From NCBI RefSeq assembly GCF_007990525.1, contig NZ_AP019823.1, positions 1,116,001-1,180,000 on the forward strand: a stretch of 64,000 nt of DNA, in the 5' to 3' direction. The translations under genes were made by a program, and so were the position numbers. Position 1 is the first letter of the stretch; each line of letters begins with the position of its first letter. The notes beneath the pieces were generated by a model, which did not search any database, was not told the DNA's origin, and saw nothing but the letters and a program-made list of their open reading frames with translations. Source of the stretch: Leptotrichia hofstadii (GTDB taxonomy: Bacteria; Fusobacteriota; Fusobacteriia; Fusobacteriales; Leptotrichiaceae). This document shows, piece by piece, positions 2,026 to 36,732 of this stretch.

Positions 2026-2036
2026 AAAAATCTTAT

Positions 2037-2085
2037 TACAGTAAAAATCTTTTGTTTAATTCAAAGAGGTTTTACTGTATTTTTT
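2037..2085 (+). terminator. Intrinsic terminator after pcrA
   Basis: A perfect 10-bp inverted repeat, TACAGTAAAA (2037-2046) and TTTTACTGTA (2070-2079), runs straight into a T-rich tract. It starts 11 bases after the helicase stop codon. Confidence 0.8.
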
Positions 2086-2350
2086 GTATATTTTCAAAGG
2101 AAAAAGAGTTATAATTGGGCATACAAATTAAAAGTATATAGATGATTTAAAAGTATCAAAGATTGACTAACAGCAGTGTCTACAACTACAAGAATTTTTG
2201 TTTCTTTGTCAAAGATGGAGAAAATAACAAAGCTAAAAATTTTAAAATATTGTATTTGGTGAAGTTTTTATACTTTTACGAAAGGCTAAAAGAGTATAGG
2301 GAAGGAGAGTATGATTTTTACATGATTTGTAATTATCATACAAAATAAAA
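2086..2350 (+). other. Leader region of nadV, no convincing gene
   Basis: A TATAAT at 2110-2115 could be a -10 box but has no good -35 partner. A 61-codon open frame (2163-2348, TTG start) ends two bases before the nadV ATG. Its composition is low-complexity and I recognise no family. An AAGGAG at 2301-2306 precedes ATG ATT TTT ACA TGA, a four-codon mini-ORF. Nothing here resembles a known NAD-responsive riboswitch that I can identify. Confidence 0.4.
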
Positions 2351-3781
2351 ATGAAAAATTTAATATTATCGACAGATTCTTATAAAATTACACATCCATT
2401 TCAGTATCCAGAAAATATGACGTATATGCACGATTATATCGAAAGCCGTGGTGGCTTATACGGATATGTAAAATTTTTTGGACTTCAATATTACTTAATG
2501 GGATATTTAACAAAAAGAATTACAAATGAAATGATAGATGAAGCTAAGGAAATTTGCGAATTGCATGGATTGCCATTTTTTGAAGAGGGATGGAGGTATA
2601 TTGTAGAAAGACTGGACGGGAAATTGCCACTTAGAATTAGAACCGTTCCAGAAGGCAGTGTTGTAAAAAATCATAATGTGCTGGTTACAGTTGAATCAAC
2701 TGACAAAAATGTGCCTTGGATTGTGGGCTGGGTGGAAACATTGCTGTTAAAAATATGGTATCCAATTACAGTTGCGACATTTTCATACAAGGCAAAACAG
2801 ATTATAAAATACTTTTTAGAGGAAACAAGTGATAATGTGGAGTCAGAATTGAAGTTTAAATTGCATGATTTTGGTTATCGTGGTGTTTCCAGCGAGGAAA
2901 GTGCCGGAATTGGCGGAATGGCTCATCTTACAAATTTTTATGGAACAGATACCTTAAATGCACTTGTCTTTGCCCGTAAATATTATAATGAAAAAATAGC
3001 CGCTTACAGCGTGCCTGCTTCTGAACATAGCACAATGACTTCATGGACTCAGGAATATGAAAAAGAGGCATACGAAAATATGCTTGATAAATTTCCAAAA
3101 GGAATTGTTTCAATCGTTCTTGACAGCTATAATTTTTTTAATGCGGTAGAAAATATTATTGGAAAAGAGCTGCGTGAAAAAATATTGGCAAGAGATGGAA
3201 TGGTTACAATACGTCCAGATAGCGGAGATGCAATTACAAATATTTTATTTGCACTCGAAAGTCTGGAGAAGAATTTTGGGTATACTGTAAACTCCAAAGG
3301 ATATAAAGTGATTAACAAAGTCCGTATTTTACAAGGCGATGGAATTAATGAAGATACAATCTGGGATATTTATAAATCTTTAAAGGATAACAAATATTCT
3401 GCCGAAAATGTTACTTTGGGCTGTGGAGGATCGCTTTTGCAAGGAAATGAAAAATCTAGCATTAACAGGGATACTCATAAATTTGCCATGAAATGCAGCT
3501 GTATAAAAATTGGAAATGAAGTTAGAGATGTTTACAAAAATCCTGTTACAGATAAAGGAAAAGTCAGTAAAAAAGGACGGCTTGACTTGATAAAAAATAA
3601 AAATGGAGAATTTGAAACAGTAAATATTTCAGATTTACCTGAAAATCAATATCATGAAGATTCCGTAATGGAATGTGTTTTTGAAAATGGAAAAATTTTA
3701 AAAACATATACTTTTGAAGAAGTAAGAAAAAATGAAAGTTTATTGTATAATCCGAGTTTAATTAGAGAAGTATCAAAATAG
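2351..3781 (+). CDS. nadV: Nicotinamide phosphoribosyltransferase (NAMPT/NadV family)
   Basis: Makes nicotinamide mononucleotide from nicotinamide and PRPP, the first step of the two-step NAD salvage route. The 476 residues match the NAMPT family in length and motifs: FGYRGVSSEESAGIG, GTDT with Asp200 (the residue class that sets preference for the amide over nicotinic acid in human NAMPT), YSVPASEHSTMTSW with His226 in the place of the catalytic histidine, LDSYNFFNA, and the phosphate-binding IRPDSGD. These distinguish it from the PncB nicotinate enzymes. The start matches family N-termini (LSTDSYKITH), but no Shine-Dalgarno sequence lies in front of it, so initiation may be weak or coupled to an upstream frame. 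No nadM-like partner is adjacent. Confidence 0.92.
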   Translation: MKNLILSTDSYKITHPFQYPENMTYMHDYIESRGGLYGYVKFFGLQYYLMGYLTKRITNEMIDEAKEICELHGLPFFEEGWRYIVERLDGKLPLRIRTVPEGSVVKNHNVLVTVESTDKNVPWIVGWVETLLLKIWYPITVATFSYKAKQIIKYFLEETSDNVESELKFKLHDFGYRGVSSEESAGIGGMAHLTNFYGTDTLNALVFARKYYNEKIAAYSVPASEHSTMTSWTQEYEKEAYENMLDKFPKGIVSIVLDSYNFFNAVENIIGKELREKILARDGMVTIRPDSGDAITNILFALESLEKNFGYTVNSKGYKVINKVRILQGDGINEDTIWDIYKSLKDNKYSAENVTLGCGGSLLQGNEKSSINRDTHKFAMKCSCIKIGNEVRDVYKNPVTDKGKVSKKGRLDLIKNKNGEFETVNISDLPENQYHEDSVMECVFENGKILKTYTFEEVRKNESLLYNPSLIREVSK

Positions 3782-3881
3782 AAATGATAAAATTAGATAA
3801 AAATAGTTTAAATTAAAACTGTAAAAATCATACAATTTAAATTTTTACAAACAACAGACAAATTACGAAAGAAGGGAAAAA

Positions 3882-4532
3882 ATGAAAAAAATATTATTAT
3901 TAGGAGCAGCTGCAGTAGTTCTGGCTGCCTGTGGAAATAAGCCAAAAACACAAAATGAAACAGGAAAGGCAGGACAAGATGCCGAATATGCACAATATTT
4001 AGACACTTTGAAAGCTGATAATAATTTAAAAATCACAATGGGAAAAGTTCCTGTAACAATTGTTGGAAAAGAATTAAAAGTTGGAGATAAAATAAGGGAA
4101 GTGCCTTTAGTTGTAAATACGAAATTGGAAGAAAAAAATATTTTTGAAGATAAAAATATAAAAGTAATTTATACAGCACCGTCACTTGATACAAAAGTTT
4201 GTTCACTGCAGACAAAACAGTTAAATGAAGCTGCCAAAACTCACACAAACGTGAAATTTTACTCTGTGACAGTTGACACTCCATTTGCTCAGGAAAGATT
4301 CTGTACAGCCAATGAAATTAACGGATTAAAAGCGGTTTCTGACTTTAAATATCATCAATTTGGTATCCAAAATGGATTTTTCATAAAGGAAAAAGGGCTT
4401 TTAACAAGAGCATTGATGATAGTGGATGAAAATAATAATGTGAAATACATTGAATACGTGTCTGAGGAAGGAAAAGAGGCAGATGTCGATAAGGCATTGA
4501 AATTTTTGGAAAATAAGTTGCTAAAAAAATAA
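3882..4532 (+). CDS. tpx: Thiol peroxidase (Tpx family) made as a lipoprotein
   Basis: Atypical 2-Cys peroxiredoxin that reduces hydroperoxides using thioredoxin. The Tpx core starts near residue 50 (KVPVTIVGKELKVGDK). The peroxidatic Cys107 lies in APSLDTKVCSLQT and the resolving Cys141 in FAQERFC; the 34-residue spacing is that of E. coli Tpx. The protein is about 50 residues longer than a usual Tpx because of a type II signal peptide with lipobox LAAC (lipidated Cys17) and a polar linker, so it should be membrane-anchored, probably facing the periplasm. Ribosome site AAGAAGGG precedes the ATG. It appears monocistronic, followed by the riboswitch promoter. A normal Tpx is soluble, so the anchor is unusual. 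Confidence 0.92.
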   Translation: MKKILLLGAAAVVLAACGNKPKTQNETGKAGQDAEYAQYLDTLKADNNLKITMGKVPVTIVGKELKVGDKIREVPLVVNTKLEEKNIFEDKNIKVIYTAPSLDTKVCSLQTKQLNEAAKTHTNVKFYSVTVDTPFAQERFCTANEINGLKAVSDFKYHQFGIQNGFFIKEKGLLTRALMIVDENNNVKYIEYVSEEGKEADVDKALKFLENKLLKK

Positions 4533-4577
4533 TATAAAATTGAAAATAGATTAACTTAGAATACAATGAGAAAAAAA

Positions 4578-4606
4578 TTGACACACAGAGAAAAATATGC
4601 TAACAT
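4578..4606 (+). promoter_or_regulatory. Sigma-70 promoter for the glycine riboswitch transcript
   Basis: TTGACA (4578-4583), 17-bp spacer, TAACAT (4601-4606), with an extended -10 TG at 4598-4599. It lies about 30 bases ahead of the first aptamer. Confidence 0.75.
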
Positions 4607-4633
4607 ATAGGAAAGTGAATAATTTGGATGAAG

Positions 4634-4822
4634 GTATGAGGAGAGATTTTATTTCATTTATAAATTTTGTAAATATGTAATAAAACACCGAAGAAGTAAC
4701 TCTTTCAGGTAAAAGGACTCATAGTGGACGAGCCTCTGGAGAGACTGTCTTAAATGACGGCACCGAAGGAGCAAAGGAATTTTATTCCCTAAACTCTCAG
4801 GTAAAAGAACAGAGAATGATAC
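4634..4822 (+). promoter_or_regulatory. Tandem glycine riboswitch
   Basis: Two consecutive aptamers with the conserved gcvT-type elements. The first runs from GAGGAGAGA (about 4638) through ACCGAAGAAG, CTCTTTCAGGTAAAAGGAC and GGACGAGCC. The second has CTCTGGAGAGA, ACCGAAGGAGCAA and ACTCTCAGGTAAAAGAACAGAG. A terminator hairpin follows at 4875-4915, before the symporter gene, so the expression platform is probably transcriptional. Whether glycine turns the gene on or off cannot be decided by eye. Confidence 0.93.
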
Positions 4823-4874
4823 ATATAAAATTATGGATTTTATATTTCTTTTTTAATATAAAAGAAATTTTAAG

Positions 4875-4915
4875 AGGTTGTCTTGACTTTATTTAAGTAA
4901 AAGACAGCCTTTTTC
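4875..4915 (+). terminator. Riboswitch expression-platform terminator
   Basis: AGGTTGTCTT (4875-4884) pairs with AAGACAGCCT (4901-4910, one G-T wobble), followed by TTTTT. It lies between the second glycine aptamer and the symporter start. Confidence 0.8.
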
Positions 4916-5006
4916 TTTGATTTATAATAAAATTTGTATTAAAACGCTTTAAACTTTTCTATCCATTCTAAAATTCAGAAATAAAAAACGAAGGAGAAGG
5001 ATTTAG

Positions 5007-6356
5007 ATGTTAGAAATTATTAAAAATTTTAATGAATTTTTTTGGGGAGTTATTTTAATTGTTTTGTTAGTTGGAACGGGAGTATTTTATACATTTCGAC
5101 TAAAATTTATTCAAGTTAGGGAGTTTAAAAGCGGTTTGAAACAGTTGACGAGCGGATTTGACTTGAGCGGAGAAAAGGCGGATAATAATGGAATGTCGTC
5201 GTTTCAGGCTTTAGCAACGGCTATTGCGGCACAAGTTGGAACAGGGAATCTCGCAGGAGCGGCAACAGCAATTGTATCAGGAGGACCAGGGGCAATATTC
5301 TGGATGTGGGTAAGTGCATTTTTTGGAATGGCAACTATCTATTCAGAAGCTGTATTAAGTCAGATTTTCAAACAGAAAAAAGATGGAGAAATGACGGGAG
5401 GCCCAGCCTACTACATTGAAACATTATTTAAAGGAGGAAAAGCGGCCAAATTTCTGGCAGCATTCTTTGCGGTTTCATGCATACTGTCTTTAGGATTTAT
5501 GGGAAATGCGGTTCAGGCAAATTCGGTAGGAGATGCTTTTCATAATGCTTTTCATGTTCCGACAGTTATAACAGGTATATTTTTGGCAATTTTATCTGGA
5601 TTTATATTTTTTGGAGGAGTAAAAAGAATTGCTTCAGTTACTGAAAAAATAGTTCCTATTATGGCAGTTCTTTATGTTGTAATATGTCTGTTCATTATTG
5701 TGTTAAATATTGGAAATGCAGGTTTGGCATTTAAAGCAATTTTTGTGAATGCTTTTTCGACAAAGGCAGTTTTAGGTGGATTTTTAGGAATGGGAATAAA
5801 AAAAGCAATAAGATTTGGAGTGGCAAGAGGGCTATTTTCAAATGAGGCTGGAATGGGTTCAACTCCACATGCTCACGCAATTGCAAAGGTTAAAAATCCT
5901 GAAGATCAAGGGCATGTTGCAATTGTTACAGTTTTTATTGACACTTTTGTAATTTTGACATTATCGGCATTAGTAATTTTGATTGCAGATGGAAAAGCAG
6001 ATGGAACTGGGATTTCATTGACACAACAGGCATTTCACGCAGTATTAGGTCATTTTGGAGTGATTTTTGTTGCAGTTGCATTATTCTTTTTTGCGTTTTC
6101 TACTATAATTGGATGGTATTTCTTTGGGGAAGCTAATGTGAAATATCTCTTTGGTAAAAAAGCGCTTAACATTTATAGAATTTTAGTAATGATTTGCATA
6201 ATTGCCGGTTCACTTCAAAAAGTTGATTTAGTGTGGGAACTTGCGGATATGTTTAATGGACTTATGGTAATTCCAAATTTGATAGCATTGATTGGATTGC
6301 ATAAATTGGTAGTCGAGGTTACGAAAAAGGATCCGTTGTTGCAGATTAGTGATTAA
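5007..6356 (+). CDS. Sodium:alanine/glycine symporter (AGCS family)
   Basis: Inner-membrane amino-acid:cation symporter of 449 residues, the family's normal length. It has about 11 hydrophobic segments and the AGCS signatures ATAIAAQVGTGNLAGAATAI near residue 72, GGPGAIFWMWVSAFFGMATIY, GGPAYYIE, and ARGLFSNEAGMGSTPHAHA near residue 275. AGAAGGAG precedes the ATG. The upstream tandem glycine riboswitch shows that glycine is sensed, so glycine and/or alanine uptake is the likely job. Glycine-linked GlyA lies 18 kb away and is not in this operon. The gene converges on the ABC transporter pair across a shared terminator. Confidence 0.93.
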   Translation: MLEIIKNFNEFFWGVILIVLLVGTGVFYTFRLKFIQVREFKSGLKQLTSGFDLSGEKADNNGMSSFQALATAIAAQVGTGNLAGAATAIVSGGPGAIFWMWVSAFFGMATIYSEAVLSQIFKQKKDGEMTGGPAYYIETLFKGGKAAKFLAAFFAVSCILSLGFMGNAVQANSVGDAFHNAFHVPTVITGIFLAILSGFIFFGGVKRIASVTEKIVPIMAVLYVVICLFIIVLNIGNAGLAFKAIFVNAFSTKAVLGGFLGMGIKKAIRFGVARGLFSNEAGMGSTPHAHAIAKVKNPEDQGHVAIVTVFIDTFVILTLSALVILIADGKADGTGISLTQQAFHAVLGHFGVIFVAVALFFFAFSTIIGWYFFGEANVKYLFGKKALNIYRILVMICIIAGSLQKVDLVWELADMFNGLMVIPNLIALIGLHKLVVEVTKKDPLLQISD

Positions 6357-6466
6357 TACTAAATCCCATTTAAACAACGAATTTTTTTAGCAATGGATAA
6401 AAGCCTAGTATTGCTAAATAATTAAAATATAATTTTTGCTTTTTAAACGGAGAATAGTCTATAATA

Positions 6467-6516
6467 AAAATATACCCAAATTTTTGATTGAAAAAATTCG
6501 AGATTGGGTATATTTT
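6467..6516. terminator. Bidirectional terminator between convergent genes
   Basis: AAAATATACCCAA (6467-6479) is perfectly complementary to TTGGGTATATTTT (6504-6516). T-rich flanks on both strands let it stop the symporter transcript from the left and the ABC transporter transcript from the right. Confidence 0.85.
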
Positions 6517-6521
6517 TTATA

Positions 6522-8270
6522 TTAAATTAATTCAAATTCAGATTGTGCCTTTTCCATTTCGATGTACATTTTATAATATCGTCCTTTATTTTTCATAAGT
6601 TGATTATGATTTCCAATTTCTTCGATTATTCCATCGGACATAACTATAATTTTGTCATAATCCTTTATTGTGTTGAGTTTATGGGCGATTGTAATTACAG
6701 TCTTGCTTTTTGTAAGAATACTTAGTGATTTTCTTATTTCGTGTTCGTTGTCGGCATCAAGAGAGGCTGTGGCTTCATCGACTAGGATAATTGGGGTATT
6801 TTTTAATAAGGCTCTTGCGATTGAAATTCTCTGTTTTTCTCCACCAGACAAAGTAGAGCCGCCTTCTCCGATTATAGTGTCGTATCCATTTTCGCTTTCC
6901 ATTATAAAATCGTGACAATTGGCATTTTTAGCCGCATTTATCACTTCTTCCTTTGTAGCCTTTGGTTTTCCCAGCCTTATGTTATTTTCAAAAGTGTCAT
7001 TTACCAAGTAGACATCTTGAAAAATCATGCTTATATTTGTAAGCAGCTCTTCAGGGTATATTTTTTGGATATTTATTCCACCAATGGTAATTTCACCGGA
7101 CTGGCAGTCCCAGAATCTTGCAATAAGGCTGGTAACAGTTGTTTTCCCAGAACCTGATGAACCGACTAGAGCAGTTTTTGTCCCCTGTTTTGCTTCAAAA
7201 GTAATGTTTTTTAAAACAGGAGTGTCTTTTTCATAAGAAAAATTTACATTCTGAAATTTTATATTATAATTTGGTAAAGTAACTTTTTCAAGTTCATAGG
7301 AAATTTCCTTTTCATTATGTACATTTATCAGCTTATCTGTGGCAAGTTTCAAGTATTGGATAAAAGTATATTGTGTAGAAAAGGCTTTTAGCACGTTTGA
7401 AAGTGAAAGTCCAATAATTATGTATGAAAAAAATTCCACTTTATTAATGGAAGAAGCCATAAAAAGTTGTGTAGACACAAGCAGAAGCAAGGCAAAGGAA
7501 ATATCCGTAATAAGCTGAAAAATCATAACATAAGGGGCAAGAGCAATTTCAGTATTTATACTTTCCCTTTTCAAATCATTAAAGCTGTCTTTTAACCTCT
7601 TAAATCGTTCCCCAGTCAGATTATATGCTTTAAAAAGTTCCATTCCAGCGATATATTCCACCATCCGTGAAACAACATTATCCATAGTATGCTTCTTTTT
7701 CAATGCTATTTTTGCACCTTTTTTCGTTCCCAGAATGACAAATACTAATCCAGCCAGCGAGATTATTAGTTGCAGTATGGCAAGCAAGGGAGAAATTGCA
7801 AATATAATTAACAGAAGATAAATTGTCAGTATAGATAACTTTATAATTTCTGATGTGCTGTGAGTTATAACCTGCTCAAAATCTTGTAAATCATTTGTCA
7901 TAATATTAATAATATTCCCAATGTTATGACTGTTAAAGTATCCCAGATTCAAATTTCTCAAATGATCCCCCATCCTGATTCTCAAATCCTGAATAATTTT
8001 AGCTCCCTCGGTTTGAATCCCAATATATCCGATACGATTTAATATAAATCTACAAATAATTGCAAAAATCATAATAAAAGTATAGATTATTAATTTTTTC
8101 ATCGTAAAATTATTATTCATCAAATCAATAATTGTAAAATAAAACATTGCATAGTTCATCATATAAAATAAGGCGTCTATTGTTAGAAAAAATATTGGAT
8201 TTTTCAAATTTTTATATTTATTTCCAGCAAGAGTTTTTATATTTCTAATATCGTTAATCATTATCTGCAC
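6522..8270 (-). CDS. ABC transporter half-subunit, fused permease and ATPase (second gene of pair)
   Basis: Type IV ABC half-transporter of 582 residues: about six membrane helices (residues 25-300), then an ATPase domain with Walker A GSSGSGKTT, Q-loop IFQDVY, signature LSGGEKQR, Walker B IILVDEATASLD and H-loop IAHKL. The catalytic glutamate is present. It starts three bases after the stop of its partner, so the two are co-transcribed and should form a heterodimer. Order and length resemble exporter-fold pairs such as YbtP/YbtQ and IrtA/IrtB that handle siderophores. That substrate is only a guess, because no siderophore or metallophore genes are adjacent. Confidence 0.88.
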   Translation of the reverse strand: MQIMINDIRNIKTLAGNKYKNLKNPIFFLTIDALFYMMNYAMFYFTIIDLMNNNFTMKKLIIYTFIMIFAIICRFILNRIGYIGIQTEGAKIIQDLRIRMGDHLRNLNLGYFNSHNIGNIINIMTNDLQDFEQVITHSTSEIIKLSILTIYLLLIIFAISPLLAILQLIISLAGLVFVILGTKKGAKIALKKKHTMDNVVSRMVEYIAGMELFKAYNLTGERFKRLKDSFNDLKRESINTEIALAPYVMIFQLITDISFALLLLVSTQLFMASSINKVEFFSYIIIGLSLSNVLKAFSTQYTFIQYLKLATDKLINVHNEKEISYELEKVTLPNYNIKFQNVNFSYEKDTPVLKNITFEAKQGTKTALVGSSGSGKTTVTSLIARFWDCQSGEITIGGINIQKIYPEELLTNISMIFQDVYLVNDTFENNIRLGKPKATKEEVINAAKNANCHDFIMESENGYDTIIGEGGSTLSGGEKQRISIARALLKNTPIILVDEATASLDADNEHEIRKSLSILTKSKTVITIAHKLNTIKDYDKIIVMSDGIIEEIGNHNQLMKNKGRYYKMYIEMEKAQSEFELI

Positions 8271-26600: not shown

Positions 26601-26765
26601 TTGTATTTATTAATTAAATGAAATAGAAATATAAATAATATTATTTAAAAATTATAATAATTATAAAAAATATGGATGTATAATTTTTAGATAATTTTAT
26701 TTGCTGTTAGAAACAGTATTCAGGAATAGATGATTTCGATTGTAAAAGATTTCATCACGGCTAAG

Positions 26766-26790
26766 AAAATTAGAAAAATTAGAAAAATTA
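26766..26790 (+). repeat. 9-bp tandem repeat beside the autotransporter ribosome site
   Basis: AAAATTAGA occurs at 26766-26774 and 26775-26783, then a partial third copy AAAATTA at 26784-26790. It lies just before AAAAAAGGAG and the ATG at 26808. Copy-number change would alter the spacing upstream of the ribosome site. Confidence 0.7.
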
Positions 26791-26807
26791 ATAAAAAAGG
26801 AGAAGAA

Positions 26808-29800
26808 ATGACAAACAATTTGAGAAGATTTTCGCAGGATTTACGTGCGTTTGCAAAAAGAACAAAAGATTTCAAATATACGGAATCAGCATTAATCACA
26901 TTTTTAATAACAGGAATGATATTTTCTGCAGGAAAACTGGATGCAGCTCCGAAAGAGCCTACTATAGAAAATCAAAGAAGATCTATTTCTACATCCATAA
27001 CAGATATGCGCCAGAACTTTAAAAGAGTGAAAGCTGAAACTAAAAAATTAATAAAAGACAGCAACATGGAATTGATACAATTGATGGAACAGGGAGATCA
27101 TGTAACAAAAAGTCCTTGGAGCAGCTGGCAATTTGGACAAAACTTTTTCTATGATGACTGGCATGGCGCTTATAAGGGAAGAGGAGATAAGAAAATAAAA
27201 TATCCTTATGAAGGAATTTTTGAAAGAGGGGACAGATACGAAAGGGCAATAAATCCTTTAAGTGACAAGTACGAGGAGATGCCTCTGGCTTCAAGAAAAA
27301 ATGCCGCTTCAAGTTCGCAAAGAACAGGGCTTGTTTCAGATTCGTACGGACTTGTGGGAGTAAAACCTCTTTTAGAACCGACAGTAGGATTTAATGTAAG
27401 CGTTGCAATTAGACCAAAACAGGTTGTAAAAGGAGCAATAACGATTGCAGATAAAACGCCTGCAACACCTGCACAGCCAGAAACAATAATTTTTAACGCT
27501 CCTAATATAAGCGTAACAGCGCCAGCGGCGCCACAAGTGGAACCTGCACAAGTTACAATAAGCTCGTTGACGGTAACACCTCCGATGCTGCCTAGTATTA
27601 CGTTGCCAACGCCACTTTCGTTTACACCGGCTTCACCAACAGTAAATGTAAGTATTCCAACTCCAAATTCTTTGCCAACGCTAAATTTTACAGCGACAGG
27701 TAATGGAGATGAATCATATATGCTAGGTGGAGGTCCTGGGACATGGACTTATACAAAAGGGGCTTCATATTATGCTCCAAGTGACAGGGCGGCAGTTGCG
27801 CTTATGGGTCAGGTAAGTATGAGTTCGGGAACAGTTAGCTACACGGATTCAGGTATTACTATAAATGGAAATTTGACTGGATCAGGTTCAATGGGTGGAA
27901 GCTGGAGTTTTAGTGGAACTCATAGCGTAACAGGATTTACTGGACATGCGCTTATAAAAAATACTGGAGATTATACTTCAAATATAGACAATACAACTAT
28001 AACCTTCAACAGATCGGGAGGTGCTAATTATGATGCATGGCTATTTCACACGGATGCCCATAATAGCAGCGTAGTATCTGCATTTGTCCTAGGAAGTGGA
28101 ACAACAATTAATACAACGGGTAATAAATCTGTTGTATATACTTCTCAATTTCATAATGGAAATTTAAATGCTGAATTTACAAATAATGGAACTATTGATA
28201 TGGGAGGTACTGAGAATATTGTATGGGTAGCATTGAATGAAAATGCAAGAAGCAGACATAAAGACAATATTTTCAGAAATGGCGGAACAATAAAGCTGAA
28301 CAGTTCTAAAAATACGTTTGCATATATAGATATGCCGACTACTATAGGAGCTATTGGTGGAGGCTGGGCTGGAAAAGGAGTTCCAGCAGGCGGTTCTGCA
28401 GGTGGAACTAACGCAGGTAATAGTAACGGTTGGGAAATAATAAGTACAGGAACGTTAGATATAGGCGGGACTCAGAATACAGGAATATTTATAAATGACA
28501 GCTGGAAATACTGGAAGGCTAAGATTGAGCTTGCTGCTGGAGATAAAACTAAAATTTCAGGAACTAAAAATATAGGAACATATTTTAAAGGCTGGGCAGA
28601 TGTCTCTACTTCAAAACTTAATATGCAAATGCCTGGAGATGAAAATGTAGGAATATACCTTGAATACGCAGGTACAGCAACAGATGATGAGTTTAAGTTC
28701 ACAAGCGCTTCAACATTAGATTCAGAAGGCAAGAAAAATGTTTTGATATACAATAAGGCCAGTAAAGCTAATTTTGGAACAAATGTTAATTTAAAAGTTA
28801 ATGGAAAAGAAAATGTTGGGATTGTTAATGAATCTGCACAAGATTTAGTAACTGCCGCAAAAATTGAAACAACAAAAAATTCTGGGGAAGAATCAATTGG
28901 AATATACTCAAAAGGGACAGGTGCAACTACTAATACTGGAAATATAACTATGAAGGCTAAAAAAGTAAAAGGTATTGTAGCTGATAACTCAGGAACTATT
29001 AACAATAATGGTGGAACTATTGCTGTGGAAGGAGATGAAGTTGCAGGTGCAATTGCGATGGGGAATGGAACTGTAAATATTTCGACAGCTTCACCAAGCA
29101 ATGCAACAACGATTACAGTAAAAGGAAAATCAGGACTCGGACTTTATGCAGAAAGTGGCGGTACAATTAATGCAGGCGATGCAACAATTACAAGTTCTGG
29201 AGGTGCCGTAAATGTTTATTCTAATGGTGGGGATATTCATTTAAGCAAAAACAATAAAAAGACTACAGTAAATGTAGGAGCTGATTCACTTGGATTTATG
29301 AGAACGGGAGGTAACCAGATAATATTTGACAGTGCTACAGAACTTAATGTTGCCACAGGCGGATCAGGATTTTATATAACAACATCTCCAGTTCCAACTT
29401 CAGTTTCATATCCTGTAAACATTGCGTCAGAACTTACTGCTGGATATTCGGGACTGAATAAATTGACTGCAAATATGAGTGCAGACTCGAACTTGGTAGT
29501 TGCTTCGTATGCACAAGCTAATTTATCTGATTTGGATCTTTCGGGATATGGTATGACTATAAATGGTACTGGGCATAAAGAATTTTTACTGTACAGAAGT
29601 AAATTGACTCTTGATTCTCCAAAGACTTATAATGATTATAAAAAAATAGCATTATCCAGTTCATCAATTATTAATGATACAGCTATACAGACAGATGATG
29701 ACGGTGTAAAGCTTATGGCACAAGAAAATGATGGCGGTACTGATAAATGGGTAAAACTGGAAAATAAGAAAACTATTGAACTAGGTGGAAAAAATTCAGT

Positions 29801-32800
29801 TGCGATGTATGCGAGCGATGGTACTATAAAAAATCATTCAGGTGCAACTATCACAATGAAAAAAGAAGGATCTGCCGCAATCTTTGGTAAGAATACAGGA
29901 AAAGGTGATACAGAGATTATAAATGATGGAGACATCCAGATTGGTGAAAAATCTGTAGGACTTTTTGCTGAAGATTATACTGAAAAAAATCTTGAAAATG
30001 CAGGTAAAATTGCTATTGTTGGAAACAGCGGAATCGGAATGTACTACAAGGCAGGGGCTTTGACGCAAGATGTAACAATGGAAAATAAAACTGGAGCTGA
30101 GATTAGTGGAACTGAATTGGGTGGAACAACTCCAGCAACATCTGTAAAAAGAGTTGGAATGTACTCAGAAGCTAACAGCAGCAGCAAAAAACTGACTGCT
30201 AAAAACTCGGGAGACATAAAGATTCTCGGAGATGGTGCAAGTTCTATAGGCGATGCTAACATCGGAATGTACACGAATGCAACTGCAGCAGGAACAAATC
30301 CATTGGAAAATGCAGGAACGATTGAACTTGGAAAATATGGAATCGGAATGTATGGATGGGATTTGGATACTAGCGGAGATATAACAGTCGGAGATGGCGG
30401 AGTTGCCATTTATTCACAAGGTGGAGATGTCAATATGACTGCGTCTGGAACTAAAAAGATAAAAGTTGGGAAAGACGCAAGAGGAATTCTTGTTGTAGGA
30501 GACGGTCAGACTGTTACAGCCACTAACTATGAATATGAAATTGGAGATGGGTCTTACGGATTTGTTAATAGAAATTCGGGATCAACAGGAAATACATTTA
30601 CAATAAGTGGCGGAAAGGCTACATTAGGAAACAAAGGTAAATTTATTTACTCAAGTGATACAAAAGGAAATATTACAAACTCAACAGACATGGAAATGCT
30701 AAGTACTGCAACTGATGGAGAAAACTACGGTATTTATGCTACAGGAACTGTAATTAACAGTGGGAAAATCGAATTTACTAAAGGTAAAGGGAATGTAGGT
30801 ATTTATGCTACAGAAGATGGAAACATTACAAACAGTGGAAATATTGAACTTGGAGAATCTGATGCCGCAAACAAGAAGTACAGTATAGGAATTATAGCAA
30901 AACCTGGAAAAGTTACAAACAGCGGAACTGTCAAGATTGGAGATTCAGCTAATTCAATTGACGGAAAAGATGGAATTGGACTGTTTGCAGACAGTGAAAA
31001 TGGAAAAAATGGAGAAATCATAAATACAGGAGCGGTAACTACCGAAGGAGATTCAACTATCGGTGCTTATGCAAATGCAAGTTCAAAAATTAGCCTTGGT
31101 GCAGGCGGAGATATTACCGTAAAGGGAGATAAGACTACTGGATACTATATTGATCAAGGTACAGGAAGCAGCATTGATTCAGGTGTAAGCATAGATGTGA
31201 CAGGAGACAATGCTAATGGTGTATTTGTAAACAAAGGTGGACTGACATACGAAGGGGACACGACTGTAACAGGTGATGGAGCTTACGGATTTGTAGCAGG
31301 TAAAAATTCTTCTGTAACTGCTAACGGCGGAAGCGTTACCGTGTCAGGCGCTTCAGGATCTTCAAAAGCTACAACTGGAACTGGTGGAAGAGGAACTGCA
31401 GGAGTTGTCGCGTTGGCAGGGGCAAATCTGACTGGCGGAAAAATGAATGTAGATGCAGATGTTACAGATGAAGGCTCTGTAGGAATATATTCGGCTGGAA
31501 AAATTGAAATTGACAAGGCTGATATAAAAGCATACAATGGAGCAGTAAACTTCTTTGCTGATAATGGAGGAACTATCTCTGTTGGAAATAATGGTGGCTC
31601 AAGCACAGTCGTAACAGGAACTGGTACTGACAAGGGCTCACTTCTGTTCTACACTCCTGGAGGAAAAGTGCTTATAAACGGTCCTATGACTGCTACTATT
31701 GAAGGTGGAACTAAAGCTACTACACGTGGTACTGCATTCTACTATACTGGTGGAGGGACATTAGGAAATATCGCTTCTTATACGGCATTGACACCTGGGA
31801 ACGTTGCAGCTTGGGCAAGAACTAACTATGGAAACGGTACAACAAGTACGCTTGGTAACTTGACATTAAATATGCAGGCTGATTCAAGACTGTTCCTGAC
31901 TCAAAAAGTTAATATGAATTTGTCAAATACGTCAGTTTCAAACTTGTTTAGCGGTCTTGCCTCAACAGAAAAGCCGACAGTAGGAGGAAGTAACGATTAT
32001 AGAAGATTTATGCTTTATCAAAGTCATCTGAACGTGGATCAGGCAGTAAATCTGGATAATCCAAGCGATGACTACAACCTGCTTGAAATCTCAAACTCAA
32101 GCATAACTAACAATAGCACGATAACAGGAACTCAAGATGGGCAAATTGGTATTGCGCAGGAAAACTCAGACCTTGCTACGCCAAAATCTACAGTAACACT
32201 TATAAATAAAGGGACTATAGACTTGTCTGGTAAAAACTCGGCTGCAATTTATGGGAAAAACGCTATTGTCGTAAATGATACTGCAGGTATCATAAAGATA
32301 GCAAAAAGCTCGACAGGGCTATATGGATTGAGAAATACAGAGATTTATAACAAAGGAAATATTTCGGTAGGAAATAAATCGACAGGAATGTTCTATTCAG
32401 ACGTATTTACAGATCCAGTAACAAGTGCTTTAACAATATACGATACAGAAACAGGGCTTCAAAATACAGGTACAATAACTCTTGATGACGAAGAAGGAGT
32501 TGGAATGACATACGAACCTGGAAATATAACTGTTGCGCCAGTATTTGAAAATGCAGGGACAATTACAAGTACAAAAGATAAGAATGTCGGAATGTATGCA
32601 AAAGTCGCAAAAAATAATATTTCATACGACACAGTAAACAGCAAAGTAATCACATTTGGAGATTCTGCTTCGCTTGCTGACCCTAATGTGGCAATGTATA
32701 CAAATGCAGCTGGAACTGGTACAAATCCGCTTATAAATAACGGAGATATAACAATCGGAAAAAATGCCGTTGGAATATATGGATTTGAAGAAGTGAACAA

Positions 32801-35297
32801 TAAAAACATAACTGTAGGCGATGGATCTGTCGCAATGTACTCTAAAGGAGGAAATGTTGACTTAAATTCAGGGACTATTAAGGTTGGAAAAAATGAAGCT
32901 GTCGGAGTGTATACAGTTGGAAGCGGACAGCAGATTACAAATACAGGAACAGCGTTTGACATAGGGGATACTTCGTTCGGATTTGTAAATGTTGGAACAG
33001 GGAATACGATTGAAAGCAATATTTCAGATGTAACACTGAAGAATGATTCGGTTTACGCATATTCAAATGATACTTCTGGAATAATCAGAAATAATACAAA
33101 CTTGACATCAGTAGGTACGAATGGAAATAACTATGGTATTTACGCTGCAGGGACAATTGAAAATAACGGAAATATTGACTTTAATACAGGAATAGGAAAT
33201 GTCGGTGTTTATTCTGTAAAAAATGGAAATGCGAGAAATACTGGTACAATATCTGTTGGGGGATCTGATCCTATTAACAAGATATTCAGTGTCGGAATGG
33301 CCGCTGGATATATAGGGGATTCCAGCACGCCTGCAACTACTGGAAATATTGAGAACAACGGAACAATCAACGTAAACGGAAAATACAGCATAGGAATGTA
33401 CGGTGTTGGAGCAGGAACTACAGTTACAAACAACAGTGACATTGTATTAAATGCAAACAACACAATAGGTATTTACGTTGAGGAAGGTGCAAAGGCTATA
33501 AATAACGGTTCGATAAGAACAGGTGCAAGCGGGCTGTCAAGCGTGACAGGAGTTGTGCTTAGCAAAAATTCAACTTTGGATAATAGAGGTACGATAGATA
33601 TTGACTCAAGATCTGGAGTAGGAGTGTATCTTAAAGGTGGAACAATTATCAACCGTGGACGTATAAATGTAACTGGAAAAGGAGCTGTGGAAGAGTACGA
33701 CATGGCTAAGAATGCCACTTCAAAACCTATGGGAGATGTAATAATTGATGCTCCTGCAGGATCGCCAACTGCTAAAATAATAGTAGCTGGAAAAGGTGAA
33801 GTTCAGCCTACATTAGTTACAACTACAGCAGAAAATCCAATAACAGTGTCGGCTTCAAGCATAGGGCTTTATGTAGATACTTCCAGCAAAAATTATACTC
33901 AGGCGATTGATAATCTAGGAGCATTGACAGGCGAGGCTGATCTGATAATAGGAGTAGAGGCGGCAGAAAATACGGCAAGCAAATATATTCAGATAAATGA
34001 CAGAAATATCCTGGATCCATATAACAGGGCAATCGTGTACGGTGGAGTTGCAAAATGGACAGTCTATTCTGGAGCGTTGACTTGGATGGCTACACCGACT
34101 CTTGATCCTGACACAGGAGAAATTACAAATCTGTACATGGCGAAAGCGGCATATACTAACTGGGCCTCTAACAGCAAAGTAACTCCAACAAAAGTTACAG
34201 ATACATACAATTTTGCTGACGGGCTGGAACAAAGATATGGAGTTAAGCCGCTTGGAACTAGGGAAAATCAAATATTCCAAAAATTAAATTCAATTGGAAA
34301 TAATGAAGAAATCCTTCTGTACCAAGCTTTTGACGAAATGATGGGACATCAGTACGGTAATCTGCAGCAAAGAATCAGCAAAACTGGAAGCCTTCTGGAT
34401 AAAGAGTTCAACCACTTGAGAAAAGACTGGAGAAAACCATCTAAGGACAACAACAAAATTAAGGTATTCGGTATGAGGGACGAATATAATTCTGATACTG
34501 CCGGAGTAATTGACAACACTAGCAACGCTTACGGATTTGCTTATGTTCATGAAAATGATACAGTAAAATTAGGAAACAGTTCAGGATGGTATGCCGGAGC
34601 GGTAACTAACAGATTCAGATTCAAGGATATTGGACATTCTAAAGAAAATCAGTCAATGATTAAGGCAGGAGTATTCAAGACAATGTCGCCTAAAAATGAC
34701 CATAACGGTTCATTAAGATGGACTATCTCGGGAGATGTGTATGCTGGAATTAATGATATGAAACGTAGATATCTTGTAGTAGATGAAGTATTTGAAGCAA
34801 AATCTGACTACCGTACTTATGGAGCGGCAGTTAAGAATGAGCTTGGATATAACATAAGAATGAGCGAGAGAACACATTTACGTCCTTATGGAGCATTAAA
34901 GATGGAATACGGAAGATTTAACAACATAAAAGAAGACAGAGGGGAAATGCGTCTGGAAGTAAAAGGAAACGACTACTTCTCAGTAAAACCTGAAGTTGGA
35001 ATGGAATTCAGATATGTACAGCCATTGGCAGTAAGAACAAATTTATCGGTAGGACTGACAGCGGCTTATGAAAACGAACTAGGAAAAGTTGGAGAAAATA
35101 ACAACAAGGCAAGAGTAAGATATACAAATGCCGACTGGTTTGGAATAAGAGGCGAAAAGGATGACAGAAAAGGAAGCGGTAAGTTTGACTTGAATATCGG
35201 AATTGATAATACGAGATTTGGAGTGACTGTAAATGCCGGATATGACACTAAAGGTAAAAATGTAAGAGGTGGAATAGGATTCAGGGCTATTTACTAA
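26808..35297 (+). CDS. Giant type V autotransporter (adhesin-like), Leptotrichia/Fusobacterium type
   Basis: About 2,829 residues from the ATG at 26808, which has AAAGGAGAAG ahead of it; the open frame reaches back to 26730 without a ribosome site. Order: an extended charged N-region with a hydrophobic stretch (MTNNLRRFSQD...ALITFLITGMIFSAG) typical of fusobacterial autotransporters; a conserved WSSWQFGQNFFYDDWHG segment; a Pro/Thr-rich linker near residues 220-310; then about 2,100 residues of Gly/Asn/Thr-rich beta-helix repeats of the form NxGxIxxGxxxxGIY; and a C-terminal beta-barrel of about 280 residues ending GGIGFRAIY. The passenger contains a roughly 800-residue internal duplication. 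Cysteine is essentially absent. Function is probably adhesion or surface coat, by family. Confidence 0.93.
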   Translation: MTNNLRRFSQDLRAFAKRTKDFKYTESALITFLITGMIFSAGKLDAAPKEPTIENQRRSISTSITDMRQNFKRVKAETKKLIKDSNMELIQLMEQGDHVTKSPWSSWQFGQNFFYDDWHGAYKGRGDKKIKYPYEGIFERGDRYERAINPLSDKYEEMPLASRKNAASSSQRTGLVSDSYGLVGVKPLLEPTVGFNVSVAIRPKQVVKGAITIADKTPATPAQPETIIFNAPNISVTAPAAPQVEPAQVTISSLTVTPPMLPSITLPTPLSFTPASPTVNVSIPTPNSLPTLNFTATGNGDESYMLGGGPGTWTYTKGASYYAPSDRAAVALMGQVSMSSGTVSYTDSGITINGNLTGSGSMGGSWSFSGTHSVTGFTGHALIKNTGDYTSNIDNTTITFNRSGGANYDAWLFHTDAHNSSVVSAFVLGSGTTINTTGNKSVVYTSQFHNGNLNAEFTNNGTIDMGGTENIVWVALNENARSRHKDNIFRNGGTIKLNSSKNTFAYIDMPTTIGAIGGGWAGKGVPAGGSAGGTNAGNSNGWEIISTGTLDIGGTQNTGIFINDSWKYWKAKIELAAGDKTKISGTKNIGTYFKGWADVSTSKLNMQMPGDENVGIYLEYAGTATDDEFKFTSASTLDSEGKKNVLIYNKASKANFGTNVNLKVNGKENVGIVNESAQDLVTAAKIETTKNSGEESIGIYSKGTGATTNTGNITMKAKKVKGIVADNSGTINNNGGTIAVEGDEVAGAIAMGNGTVNISTASPSNATTITVKGKSGLGLYAESGGTINAGDATITSSGGAVNVYSNGGDIHLSKNNKKTTVNVGADSLGFMRTGGNQIIFDSATELNVATGGSGFYITTSPVPTSVSYPVNIASELTAGYSGLNKLTANMSADSNLVVASYAQANLSDLDLSGYGMTINGTGHKEFLLYRSKLTLDSPKTYNDYKKIALSSSSIINDTAIQTDDDGVKLMAQENDGGTDKWVKLENKKTIELGGKNSVAMYASDGTIKNHSGATITMKKEGSAAIFGKNTGKGDTEIINDGDIQIGEKSVGLFAEDYTEKNLENAGKIAIVGNSGIGMYYKAGALTQDVTMENKTGAEISGTELGGTTPATSVKRVGMYSEANSSSKKLTAKNSGDIKILGDGASSIGDANIGMYTNATAAGTNPLENAGTIELGKYGIGMYGWDLDTSGDITVGDGGVAIYSQGGDVNMTASGTKKIKVGKDARGILVVGDGQTVTATNYEYEIGDGSYGFVNRNSGSTGNTFTISGGKATLGNKGKFIYSSDTKGNITNSTDMEMLSTATDGENYGIYATGTVINSGKIEFTKGKGNVGIYATEDGNITNSGNIELGESDAANKKYSIGIIAKPGKVTNSGTVKIGDSANSIDGKDGIGLFADSENGKNGEIINTGAVTTEGDSTIGAYANASSKISLGAGGDITVKGDKTTGYYIDQGTGSSIDSGVSIDVTGDNANGVFVNKGGLTYEGDTTVTGDGAYGFVAGKNSSVTANGGSVTVSGASGSSKATTGTGGRGTAGVVALAGANLTGGKMNVDADVTDEGSVGIYSAGKIEIDKADIKAYNGAVNFFADNGGTISVGNNGGSSTVVTGTGTDKGSLLFYTPGGKVLINGPMTATIEGGTKATTRGTAFYYTGGGTLGNIASYTALTPGNVAAWARTNYGNGTTSTLGNLTLNMQADSRLFLTQKVNMNLSNTSVSNLFSGLASTEKPTVGGSNDYRRFMLYQSHLNVDQAVNLDNPSDDYNLLEISNSSITNNSTITGTQDGQIGIAQENSDLATPKSTVTLINKGTIDLSGKNSAAIYGKNAIVVNDTAGIIKIAKSSTGLYGLRNTEIYNKGNISVGNKSTGMFYSDVFTDPVTSALTIYDTETGLQNTGTITLDDEEGVGMTYEPGNITVAPVFENAGTITSTKDKNVGMYAKVAKNNISYDTVNSKVITFGDSASLADPNVAMYTNAAGTGTNPLINNGDITIGKNAVGIYGFEEVNNKNITVGDGSVAMYSKGGNVDLNSGTIKVGKNEAVGVYTVGSGQQITNTGTAFDIGDTSFGFVNVGTGNTIESNISDVTLKNDSVYAYSNDTSGIIRNNTNLTSVGTNGNNYGIYAAGTIENNGNIDFNTGIGNVGVYSVKNGNARNTGTISVGGSDPINKIFSVGMAAGYIGDSSTPATTGNIENNGTINVNGKYSIGMYGVGAGTTVTNNSDIVLNANNTIGIYVEEGAKAINNGSIRTGASGLSSVTGVVLSKNSTLDNRGTIDIDSRSGVGVYLKGGTIINRGRINVTGKGAVEEYDMAKNATSKPMGDVIIDAPAGSPTAKIIVAGKGEVQPTLVTTTAENPITVSASSIGLYVDTSSKNYTQAIDNLGALTGEADLIIGVEAAENTASKYIQINDRNILDPYNRAIVYGGVAKWTVYSGALTWMATPTLDPDTGEITNLYMAKAAYTNWASNSKVTPTKVTDTYNFADGLEQRYGVKPLGTRENQIFQKLNSIGNNEEILLYQAFDEMMGHQYGNLQQRISKTGSLLDKEFNHLRKDWRKPSKDNNKIKVFGMRDEYNSDTAGVIDNTSNAYGFAYVHENDTVKLGNSSGWYAGAVTNRFRFKDIGHSKENQSMIKAGVFKTMSPKNDHNGSLRWTISGDVYAGINDMKRRYLVVDEVFEAKSDYRTYGAAVKNELGYNIRMSERTHLRPYGALKMEYGRFNNIKEDRGEMRLEVKGNDYFSVKPEVGMEFRYVQPLAVRTNLSVGLTAAYENELGKVGENNNKARVRYTNADWFGIRGEKDDRKGSGKFDLNIGIDNTRFGVTVNAGYDTKGKNVRGGIGFRAIY
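29150..33420 (+). repeat. Large internal duplication in the autotransporter passenger
   Basis: Two modules, about 29.15-30.98 kb and 31.48-33.42 kb, align in order with an offset of about 2.4 kb. Matching landmarks: GAVNVYSNGGDI and GAVNFFADNGGTI; LTANMSADSNL and LTLNMQADSRL; FLLYRSKL and FMLYQSHL; MAQENDGG and IAQENSDL; MYTNATAAGTNPL and MYTNAAGTGTNPL; VAIYSQGGDV and VAMYSKGGNV; ENYGIYATGT and NNYGIYAAGT. Identity is moderate, so the duplication is old. Confidence 0.8.
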
Positions 35298-35422: not shown

Positions 35423-35578
35423 GTCTTTTTGATAAAATAGAGGTATTAGTTACAGGAGGATGAGTTTATTTTTATAATATTTCCTGTTTAAACAGCAGAA
35501 ATAAAAAAGTGATACTGGTAGATTTTATTAAAAAATTTACAATATCACCTTTCCTTACAATAGTTTTAAAGCTCTTTT

Positions 35579-35752
35579 TTATCTTTTATTTTTATTTAAA
35601 GCCTTGCATGGCACCTTTTGGGGGTATTCTCTCCAATCATAATATAAGCCGTCTTCCTCATTATAAGAACAATTTCTATAATTTCCCATTTTCAAAGCAT
35701 AACAGCTAGTTAATAATGCTGTTAAAATAGTCAATAATATAATGTTTTTCAT
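35579..35752 (-). CDS. Tiny lipoprotein, array member 4 (57 aa)
   Basis: Translating the minus strand by hand from ATG at 35752 gives 57 residues: a type II signal peptide with lipobox LLTSC (Cys17), then YRNCSYNEEDGLYYDW, a second conserved Cys49 in KVPCKALNK, and a basic C-terminus. AAGGAG lies nine bases ahead, within the stop region of the preceding array member. It is the last of four tandem paralogues. No known family is recognised. Mature length is about 41 residues, so it is likely a structural or inhibitor-type lipoprotein rather than an enzyme. Confidence 0.8.
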   Translation of the reverse strand: MKNIILLTILTALLTSCYALKMGNYRNCSYNEEDGLYYDWREYPQKVPCKALNKNKR

Positions 35753-35764
35753 TTTTCTTGCTCC

Positions 35765-35941
35765 TTACCTCGGTTTTATATTACACTTTTTAACCCCGAC
35801 ATATTTCCCATCAACATATACTGATTTATAAAAAGCATCTTTTTCCTTGTCATAGGAACACTCTCGGTATAAACCCATATTCCAAGCATAGCATCCAGTT
35901 GTTAATATTGATAAAATAATCAATAATAAAATTTTTTTCAT
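35765..35941 (-). CDS. Tiny lipoprotein, array member 3 (58 aa)
   Basis: Hand translation from ATG at 35941 gives 58 residues: signal peptide with lipobox LTTGC (Cys17), core YRECSYDKEKDAFYKS, and second Cys53 in GVKKCNIKPR. This is the most diverged copy: DGLYYD has become DAFYKS and the PCxxLNKK tail is replaced. The start context GAGAATTAAA is a weak ribosome site, derived from the duplicated spacer shared with member 2. The stop is 12 bases before the next array member. Confidence 0.8.
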   Translation of the reverse strand: MKKILLLIILSILTTGCYAWNMGLYRECSYDKEKDAFYKSVYVDGKYVGVKKCNIKPR

Positions 35942-35970
35942 TTTAATTCTCTTTCTTTCCTTTGCAGAAA

Positions 35971-36159
35971 TTATTTTTTTCTCTTTCTTTCAATTTTCTT
36001 ATTTAAACTCGTACAAGGCACTTTTTCTGGATATTTGACCCAATAATCATAATATAAGCCATCTTCGTCGTTATAAGAACATCCTCTATAGTTGCTTTGC
36101 TCTAAAATGTCACATCCAGTTGTTAATACTAAGATAAGCAATAATAAAATTTTTTTCAT
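35971..36159 (-). CDS. Tiny lipoprotein, array member 2 (62 aa)
   Basis: 62 residues with signal peptide and lipobox LTTGC (Cys16), core YRGCSYNDEDGLYYDYW, then VPCTSLNKKIERKRKK with Cys49. The Lys/Arg-rich tail is shared almost exactly with member 1. The intergenic spacers 36160-36192 and 35942-35970 are themselves near copies (TTTTAATTC, CTTTCTTTC, CAGAAATTATTTTTTTC on the plus strand), which shows the repeat unit included the ribosome-site region. Function unknown. Confidence 0.82.
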   Translation of the reverse strand: MKKILLLLILVLTTGCDILEQSNYRGCSYNDEDGLYYDYWVKYPEKVPCTSLNKKIERKRKK

Positions 36160-36192
36160 TTTAATTCCCTTTCTTTCTTTCCTTTACAGAAA

Positions 36193-36363
36193 TTATTTTT
36201 TTCTATTTCTTTCAATTTTTTTATTTAAAGAAGTGCAAGGTGTACCATCTACTGAATTATAATACAGTCCGTCTCCTTCATAGTAAGAACAATTTCTTGA
36301 ATACCACACCGTACAGCTTGTTGTTAATGCTGATAAAAATAATAAAAGCATTAGTCTTTTCAT
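36193..36363 (-). CDS. Tiny lipoprotein, array member 1 (56 aa)
   Basis: Promoter-proximal copy. The ATG at 36363 is chosen over one 30 bases further out because AGGAGG (36374-36379) is ten bases upstream. The product is 56 residues: signal peptide, lipobox LTTSC (Cys17), core RNCSYYEGDGLYYNS, then TPCTSLNKKIERNRKK. Two cysteines outside the lipobox (Cys25 and Cys43) are conserved in all copies, suggesting one disulfide in the mature protein. It is driven by the promoter at 36390-36418 and transcribed divergently from the lysine riboswitch. Confidence 0.82.
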   Translation of the reverse strand: MKRLMLLLFLSALTTSCTVWYSRNCSYYEGDGLYYNSVDGTPCTSLNKKIERNRKK

Positions 36364-36389
36364 TTTTCTTCTACCTCCTATCTGTAATA

Positions 36390-36418
36390 ACAATACCTTA
36401 TAAAATTTGAATTGTCAA
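36390..36418 (-). promoter_or_regulatory. Promoter of the tiny-lipoprotein array
   Basis: Minus strand TTGACA (36418-36413), 17-bp spacer, TATTGT (36395-36390). It lies back to back with the lysine riboswitch promoter, about 30 bases away. Confidence 0.65.
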
Positions 36419-36448
36419 TATATTTGTCTACAAAATTTTGAAAAATAC

Positions 36449-36477: not shown

Positions 36478-36490
36478 AATAAATATTATG

Positions 36491-36656
36491 TGATAGAGGT
36501 GCAATTATTAAAAGTAAATTTACGGAGAAAAGTCGATTCTGTGAAATAAGTTGAAAGGAATAATTGCCGAAGCGTAGGGATTGACTATCTTTATTGCTGG
36601 GGCTATGGAGAATATCCATAGGACTGTCATTATCAAAGGATAATGGGGAGCTGTCA
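36491..36656 (+). promoter_or_regulatory. Lysine riboswitch (L box)
   Basis: P1 is closed by TGATAG (36491-36496) and CTGTCA (36651-36656). Between them are the conserved elements AGAGGTGC, AAGTTGAAAGGAATAATTGC, GCCGAAGC, TTGCTGGGG, GGACTGTCAT and GGGGAGCTGTC, in the order seen in Bacillus lysC leaders. It lies ahead of lysA and lysC, and a terminator hairpin follows at 36733-36760, so lysine should cause premature termination. Confidence 0.93.
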
Positions 36657-36732
36657 GATATAATTCATATAAATTTTTTAAGTTTTTTAGTTTAAAATAA
36701 AAATAATAAAAATTTTTAAATATATGTTTTAT

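Follow-up and report, generated by a model that had tools for sequence, protein, structure and literature searches.

Four tandem mini-lipoprotein genes beside lysA in Leptotrichia hofstadii, a lineage-specific array within a genus rich in small lipoproteins

Introduction

Tandem paralogous lipoprotein genes that change in copy number are known from the Lpl family of Staphylococcus aureus and from families of Borrelia, and orphan immunity arrays typically consist of tandem, diverged paralogues whose copy number changes rapidly. LptM and Lpp are very small lipoproteins, Lpp having a basic C terminus, and genes of such shortness are often missed by annotation. The window analyzed here, a stretch of 64,000 nucleotides from Leptotrichia hofstadii, holds an array of four very short lipoprotein genes (w1-w4, the window family). 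This array resembles those of S. aureus and Borrelia in its tandem paralogous arrangement and changing copy number, but the proteins of the latter are of greater size and fall into named families, to which the window family gives no profile match. With LptM and Lpp it shares the very small size and, in the case of Lpp, the basic C terminus, whereas it differs from both in having no helical-repeat pattern, extra cysteines, a patchy distribution and no profile match.

Tiny lipoproteins are also encoded by phages. Rtp45 of phage Rtp is a hairpin-forming lipoprotein of ~6 kDa, bridged by a Cys30-Cys38 disulfide, which docks on LptD and blocks phage binding (PMC12685063); Llp of T5 blocks phage binding by docking on FhuA, and both Llp and Cor (T1/phi80) contain an intramolecular disulfide (PMC9586334). 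The window family is similar to these three proteins in its tiny size, short mature part and cysteine pair. However, they are products of phage genes, while the window genes form a chromosomal tandem array between an autotransporter gene and lysA, and 17-24 residues separate the cysteines of the window family in contrast to 7 in Rtp45.

Layout of the array

The four lipoprotein genes, of 56-62 codons, lie in tandem in a compact unit on the minus strand (35579-36363), divergent from lysA and tail-to-tail with the autotransporter gene. The features of the region are as follows.

26730-35297, plus strand: autotransporter of 2855 aa (ORF)
35503-35554, minus strand: terminator-like hairpin followed by a T run (fold, z = -3.1)
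35579-35752, minus strand: w4, lipoprotein of 57 aa with a predicted hairpin at residues 28-39
35765-35941, minus strand: w3, lipoprotein of 58 aa, the most divergent member, without DGLYY and with the second Cys displaced
35942-35970, minus strand: w2-w3 spacer of 29 nt, a near copy of the w1-w2 spacer
35971-36159, minus strand: w2, lipoprotein of 62 aa (ORF and alignment)
36160-36192, minus strand: w1-w2 spacer of 33 nt with a ribosome site, a near copy of the w2-w3 spacer
36193-36363, minus strand: w1, lipoprotein of 56 aa (ORF from an internal ATG, and alignments), orthologous to the one copy of Leptotrichia sp. oral taxon 879
36390-36418, minus strand: sigma-70-like promoter of the array, TTGACA-17-TATTGT (consensus scan)
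36429-36441, no strand: edge of a species-variable cassette, adjoining the lysA promoter/riboswitch (blastn)
36486-36661, plus strand: lysine riboswitch upstream of lysA (RF00168, 117.6 bits)

The stretch with the terminator-like hairpin folds better than 199 of 200 shuffled versions, and the array promoter is also conserved in oral taxon 879 and in a relic found in another Leptotrichia genome (G009). With one promoter-like and one terminator-like element, the four paralogous, lineage-specific mini-lipoprotein genes form, on sequence grounds, a single transcription unit. The earlier note had described four minus-strand genes and a duplication of the unit together with its ribosome site; both points hold, as the four ORFs are intact and the w1-w2 and w2-w3 spacers nearly repeat one another, the third (w3-w4) being only 12 nt long. 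No toxin gene could be recognised next to the array or to its orthologue, and the array is accompanied by no partner or defence gene. The minus-strand ORFs listed across the lysine riboswitch are most likely spurious.

Coding potential and selection

The paralogues share 54-73% DNA identity, and their differences are concentrated at synonymous sites: pS is higher than pN in each of the six pairs (bootstrap P 0.003-0.077), with NG86 ratios of 0.24-0.52, while each of the other two forward frames contains 4-7 stops. Based on this pattern of substitution, the four genes are real and under purifying selection. The excess of pS over pN in the six pairs, the stops in the other frames and the presence of an intact orthologue elsewhere place the array beyond chance.

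Features of the encoded proteins

Each member contains a lipobox, as had been claimed from the sequence; direct reading gives LTTSC in w1, LTTGC in w2 and w3 and LLTSC in w4. All four, with their short signal region, satisfy a PROSITE-type lipoprotein rule (basic N terminus, hydrophobic stretch, [LIVMFWSTAG]2-x-[AGS]-C and no charge in the preceding six residues), and Pfam LPAM_1 matched w4 with an E of 0.063, under its cut-off. The lipid Cys, R-x-C-S-Y and one Tyr are invariant, and the signal region is also shared. The core proposed by the earlier note for all members is thus common only as regards CSY, since D-G-L-Y-Y and the second conserved cysteine, within PC[TK][SA]LNK, occur in w1, w2 and w4, whereas w3 reads KDAFY and has its cysteine further on (KKCNIK). 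Likewise, the very basic tail attributed to most members is pronounced in w1 and w2, while that of w4 is short and that of w3 weak. AlphaFold2, run with five sequences, returned a model with a mean pLDDT of 75, in which residues 28-31 and 36-39 are the strands of a hairpin (block pLDDT about 86).

A disulfide had been considered probable. The two mature cysteines are present, but the proposal is weakened by the lack of recognizable catalysts: among 13 Leptotrichia genomes the profiles DSBA (PF01323), DsbB (PF02600) and Thioredoxin_4 (PF13462) gave no match, with controls detected, and VKOR (PF07884) gave matches only below the cut-off. A Cys-Cys bond in the window family is therefore plausible but doubtful, with no DsbA, DsbB or VKOR detected in the genus; a bond formed by spontaneous oxidation would be compatible with the absence of known catalysts.

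Distribution and decay

In a survey of 98 Fusobacteriota genomes, one per species, the window family was found in two, this genome (4 copies) and that of Leptotrichia sp. oral taxon 879 (G011, 1 copy), so that the homologue check proposed earlier retrieved an intact homologue in one other species only. Searches of plasmids, phages and viral contigs yielded no homologue. The copy in oral taxon 879 is the w1 orthologue and is located at the same site beside lysA; DNA identity is 95% across the promoter and w1, and the sequence diverges after w1. The ratio for this orthologue pair is 0.58 overall, on few changes, one of which turns DGLYY into DRLYY. G009 keeps the promoter and the ribosome site beside lysA, but the start codon of w1 is ATA there and the gene is gone, and a second relic, ~5.4 kb away past two other genes, retains a promoter, a decayed last gene and a terminator-like hairpin. 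Homology with ten other Leptotrichia species ends at about 36429-36441, and the array is absent there. The orthologue in oral taxon 879 and the decayed array in G009 argue for rapid birth and death; as read from these comparisons, the array is a cassette of fixed location that expands, contracts and decays, with gain and loss between species.

The earlier note had allowed for non-functional duplicates, here understood as dying copies retained by chance, and the comparison of species gave an intact orthologue in one and a decayed array in another. This explanation is favored by the decay in G009 and by the ratio and the DRLYY change of the orthologue pair, but the four intact frames, the excess of pS over pN between paralogues and the conserved promoter make it improbable.

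As a separate observation, the region upstream of lysA is a hotspot, with content that varies across most Leptotrichia species examined.

Searches for described relatives

Profiles from Pfam, NCBIfam, PHROGs and PADLOC gave weak matches, mostly over the signal peptide, and assigned no family; a match of w4 residues 1-37 to TrbH (E 0.0008) was rejected, being far under the cut-off of 160 bits. No sequence match was found in PDB and no description of the window family in the literature, and Foldseek searches of viral and PDB libraries, with a query model that is tiny and moderate in quality (pLDDT 75), returned no match at E<=0.001. The view that these genes are a lipoprotein family duplicated in tandem, without described relatives, is accordingly supported by the profile, PDB and genome searches. 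Most weak matches in relatives were signal peptides of other lipoproteins and were discarded; some led to the families described below. Taken by itself, the array is a modest novelty limited to its lineage, and the mini-lipoprotein set of the genus is its more surprising context.

Other mini-lipoproteins of Leptotrichia

The mini-lipoproteins reached through weak matches combine a lipobox with a two-cysteine hairpin at the C terminus. Copies of family M (ERG..CY...G..YC, about 58 aa) number about 30 in this genome, 22 in G007, 17 in G009, 14 in G011, 11 in G010 and 0-3 in eight others, with only four matches outside Leptotrichia. Its copies are solitary or in short tandems between unrelated genes, and several sites are common to various species with differing numbers of copies (2 vs about 6; 2 vs 5; 2, 3, 2, 1, 1). 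AlphaFold2 predicts a short helix and a hairpin (37-41 and 47-51; mean pLDDT 67). Family T comprises about 35 tandem copies on two contigs of oral taxon 879, in runs that end at the contig edges and may be one array split by assembly. A further relative, named core, is present as a single copy between aldehyde dehydrogenase-like and phosphatase-like genes in at least five Leptotrichia species and is a candidate for the ancestral member of families M and T, the three being linked to one another by mature-sequence tests.

G000 (this genome), loci L084-L105, e.g. L103:9729-9905 and L097:4717-5203: M copies, a few with stops
L111 (G011:C13), 1669-7066: T run, about 25 matches in 7.1 kb, most of the contig (ERG-x-x-C-x-Y-N..G...C)
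L134 (G011:C42), 5342-7346: T run, 10 matches at the contig end
L132:5266-5424, L137:5017-5175, L138:4548-4706, L140:4429-4590 and L145:4604-4792: core (CSYFKIPK...C-T-Y-T-A-K-G-E-F-I-G-C)

M copy number and autotransporter number do not rise together, and species without M copies have 14-21 autotransporters; a role of the mini-lipoproteins as partners of autotransporters is consequently unsupported. A sub-threshold VKOR match that tracked the expansion of family M was rejected, as in the window's genome it corresponds to an iron ABC permease (FecCD-type). Several of the 13 Leptotrichia genomes are rich in two-cysteine lipoproteins with predicted export, although none gave a DSBA, Thioredoxin_4, DsbB or above-threshold VKOR match.

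Relationship to the other families and possible roles

The window family and M/T/core are found in the same genus and share size, lipobox, a hairpin core (C-x-Y...G...Y, and likewise C-x-Y...G...C) and the habit of tandem expansion at fixed sites, and pairwise alignments such as RNC-SYNEEDGLYY / RRC-YKRADGIYY can be obtained. The window family could thus be a strongly diverged branch of an M/T/core superfamily, with common ancestry and function. However, ERG-x-x-C and Cys-x9/10-Cys are characteristic of M and T, in contrast to R-x-C-S-Y and a longer cysteine spacing in the window family, and whole-length matches between the window family and M/T/core come mainly from generic signal peptides. 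The mature parts gave hhalign probabilities of 0.8% and 2.3% and shuffle p values of 0.07-0.9, in a test by which M, T and core do join one another. On these values the joining to M/T was rejected as unproven, and since the mature parts do not connect, a common origin is kept as a rival explanation, conceivable though somewhat short of probable. Common descent with M/T would fit any of the proposed functions, and the confidences given to the explanations are not mutually exclusive.

Regarding function, the preferred, though tentative, proposal, by analogy with Llp and Rtp45 and without implying kinship, is that these are outer-membrane mini-lipoproteins whose hairpin docks on a membrane protein and modulates it, although this is on the unlikely side. 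Each protein would be exported, lipidated at Cys+1 and retained in the envelope; the short Cys-bounded beta-hairpin (C-S-Y...D-G-L-Y-Y...P-C) and the basic tail would then dock on an envelope component, most likely an outer-membrane protein, and several diverged copies might allow the cell to mask or modulate several variants of the partner, such as receptors for phages, bacteriocins or contact toxins. This proposal is favored by the excess of pS over pN, by the promoter-like and terminator-like elements, by the orthologue and the decayed array with the fast turnover they indicate, by the hairpin modelled at residues 28-39, by the precedent of Rtp45 and Llp and by the many mini-lipoproteins of similar architecture at variable-copy sites in the genus. 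It is weakened by the fact that neither a sequence or fold match to superinfection-exclusion lipoproteins nor a co-located partner gene was found; the Cor profile (phrog_1119) matched the window proteins only at E 0.036-0.099, starting at the signal peptide. Also against it are the lack of phage, plasmid or viral-contig homologues, the failure to detect disulfide machinery and the M copy number, which does not increase with that of autotransporters.

An arms-race role, either in receptor masking or in immunity, would agree with the turnover and the diversification of the copies. As an orphan immunity array, in which every member would counter a toxin of its own, secreted or delivered by contact, from neighbouring cells, the locus would show just such tandem diverged paralogues with fast changes in copy number, but neither the array nor its orthologue has a recognisable toxin gene next to it and PADLOC gave no match, and this role is regarded as unlikely. 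The Lys/Arg-rich C termini of w1, w2 and w4, the small size, the lack of a partner gene and the purifying selection are, on the other hand, in line with structural or stress-related envelope lipoproteins of the Lpp/LptM kind, anchored in the outer membrane and binding peptidoglycan, LPS or a biogenesis machine through the basic tail, the multiple copies serving dosage and not diversity. Since the array is missing or decayed in most Leptotrichia species, it is not a core structural part, and the C terminus of w3 differs; such a function is considered rather unlikely.

Returning to docking, its broadest extension is that the window array, M and T together supply each cell with dozens of hairpin mini-lipoproteins, a genus-specific repertoire that binds and masks diverse outer-membrane proteins and acts as a chromosomal, expandable receptor-shielding system of lipoproteins of 35-45 residues; this joint claim is highly doubtful. 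If receptor modulation were true, Leptotrichia would show that a host can build a whole repertoire from receptor-docking mini-lipoproteins of the phage type. Leaving a receptor role aside, these families amount to a defined set of genes open to testing, in oral bacteria about whose surface biology little is known and in a genus that appears to give dozens of loci to tiny lipoproteins and in which copy number shifts between close species.

Apart from these families, a further conserved mini-lipoprotein (ERGEKCRNGDAGNWRYCDYIN), with weak similarity to the EexN family (E 0.009, under the cut-off), is encoded at L133:4702-4884 and L135:4604-4786, beside genes of a peptide-type ABC transporter.
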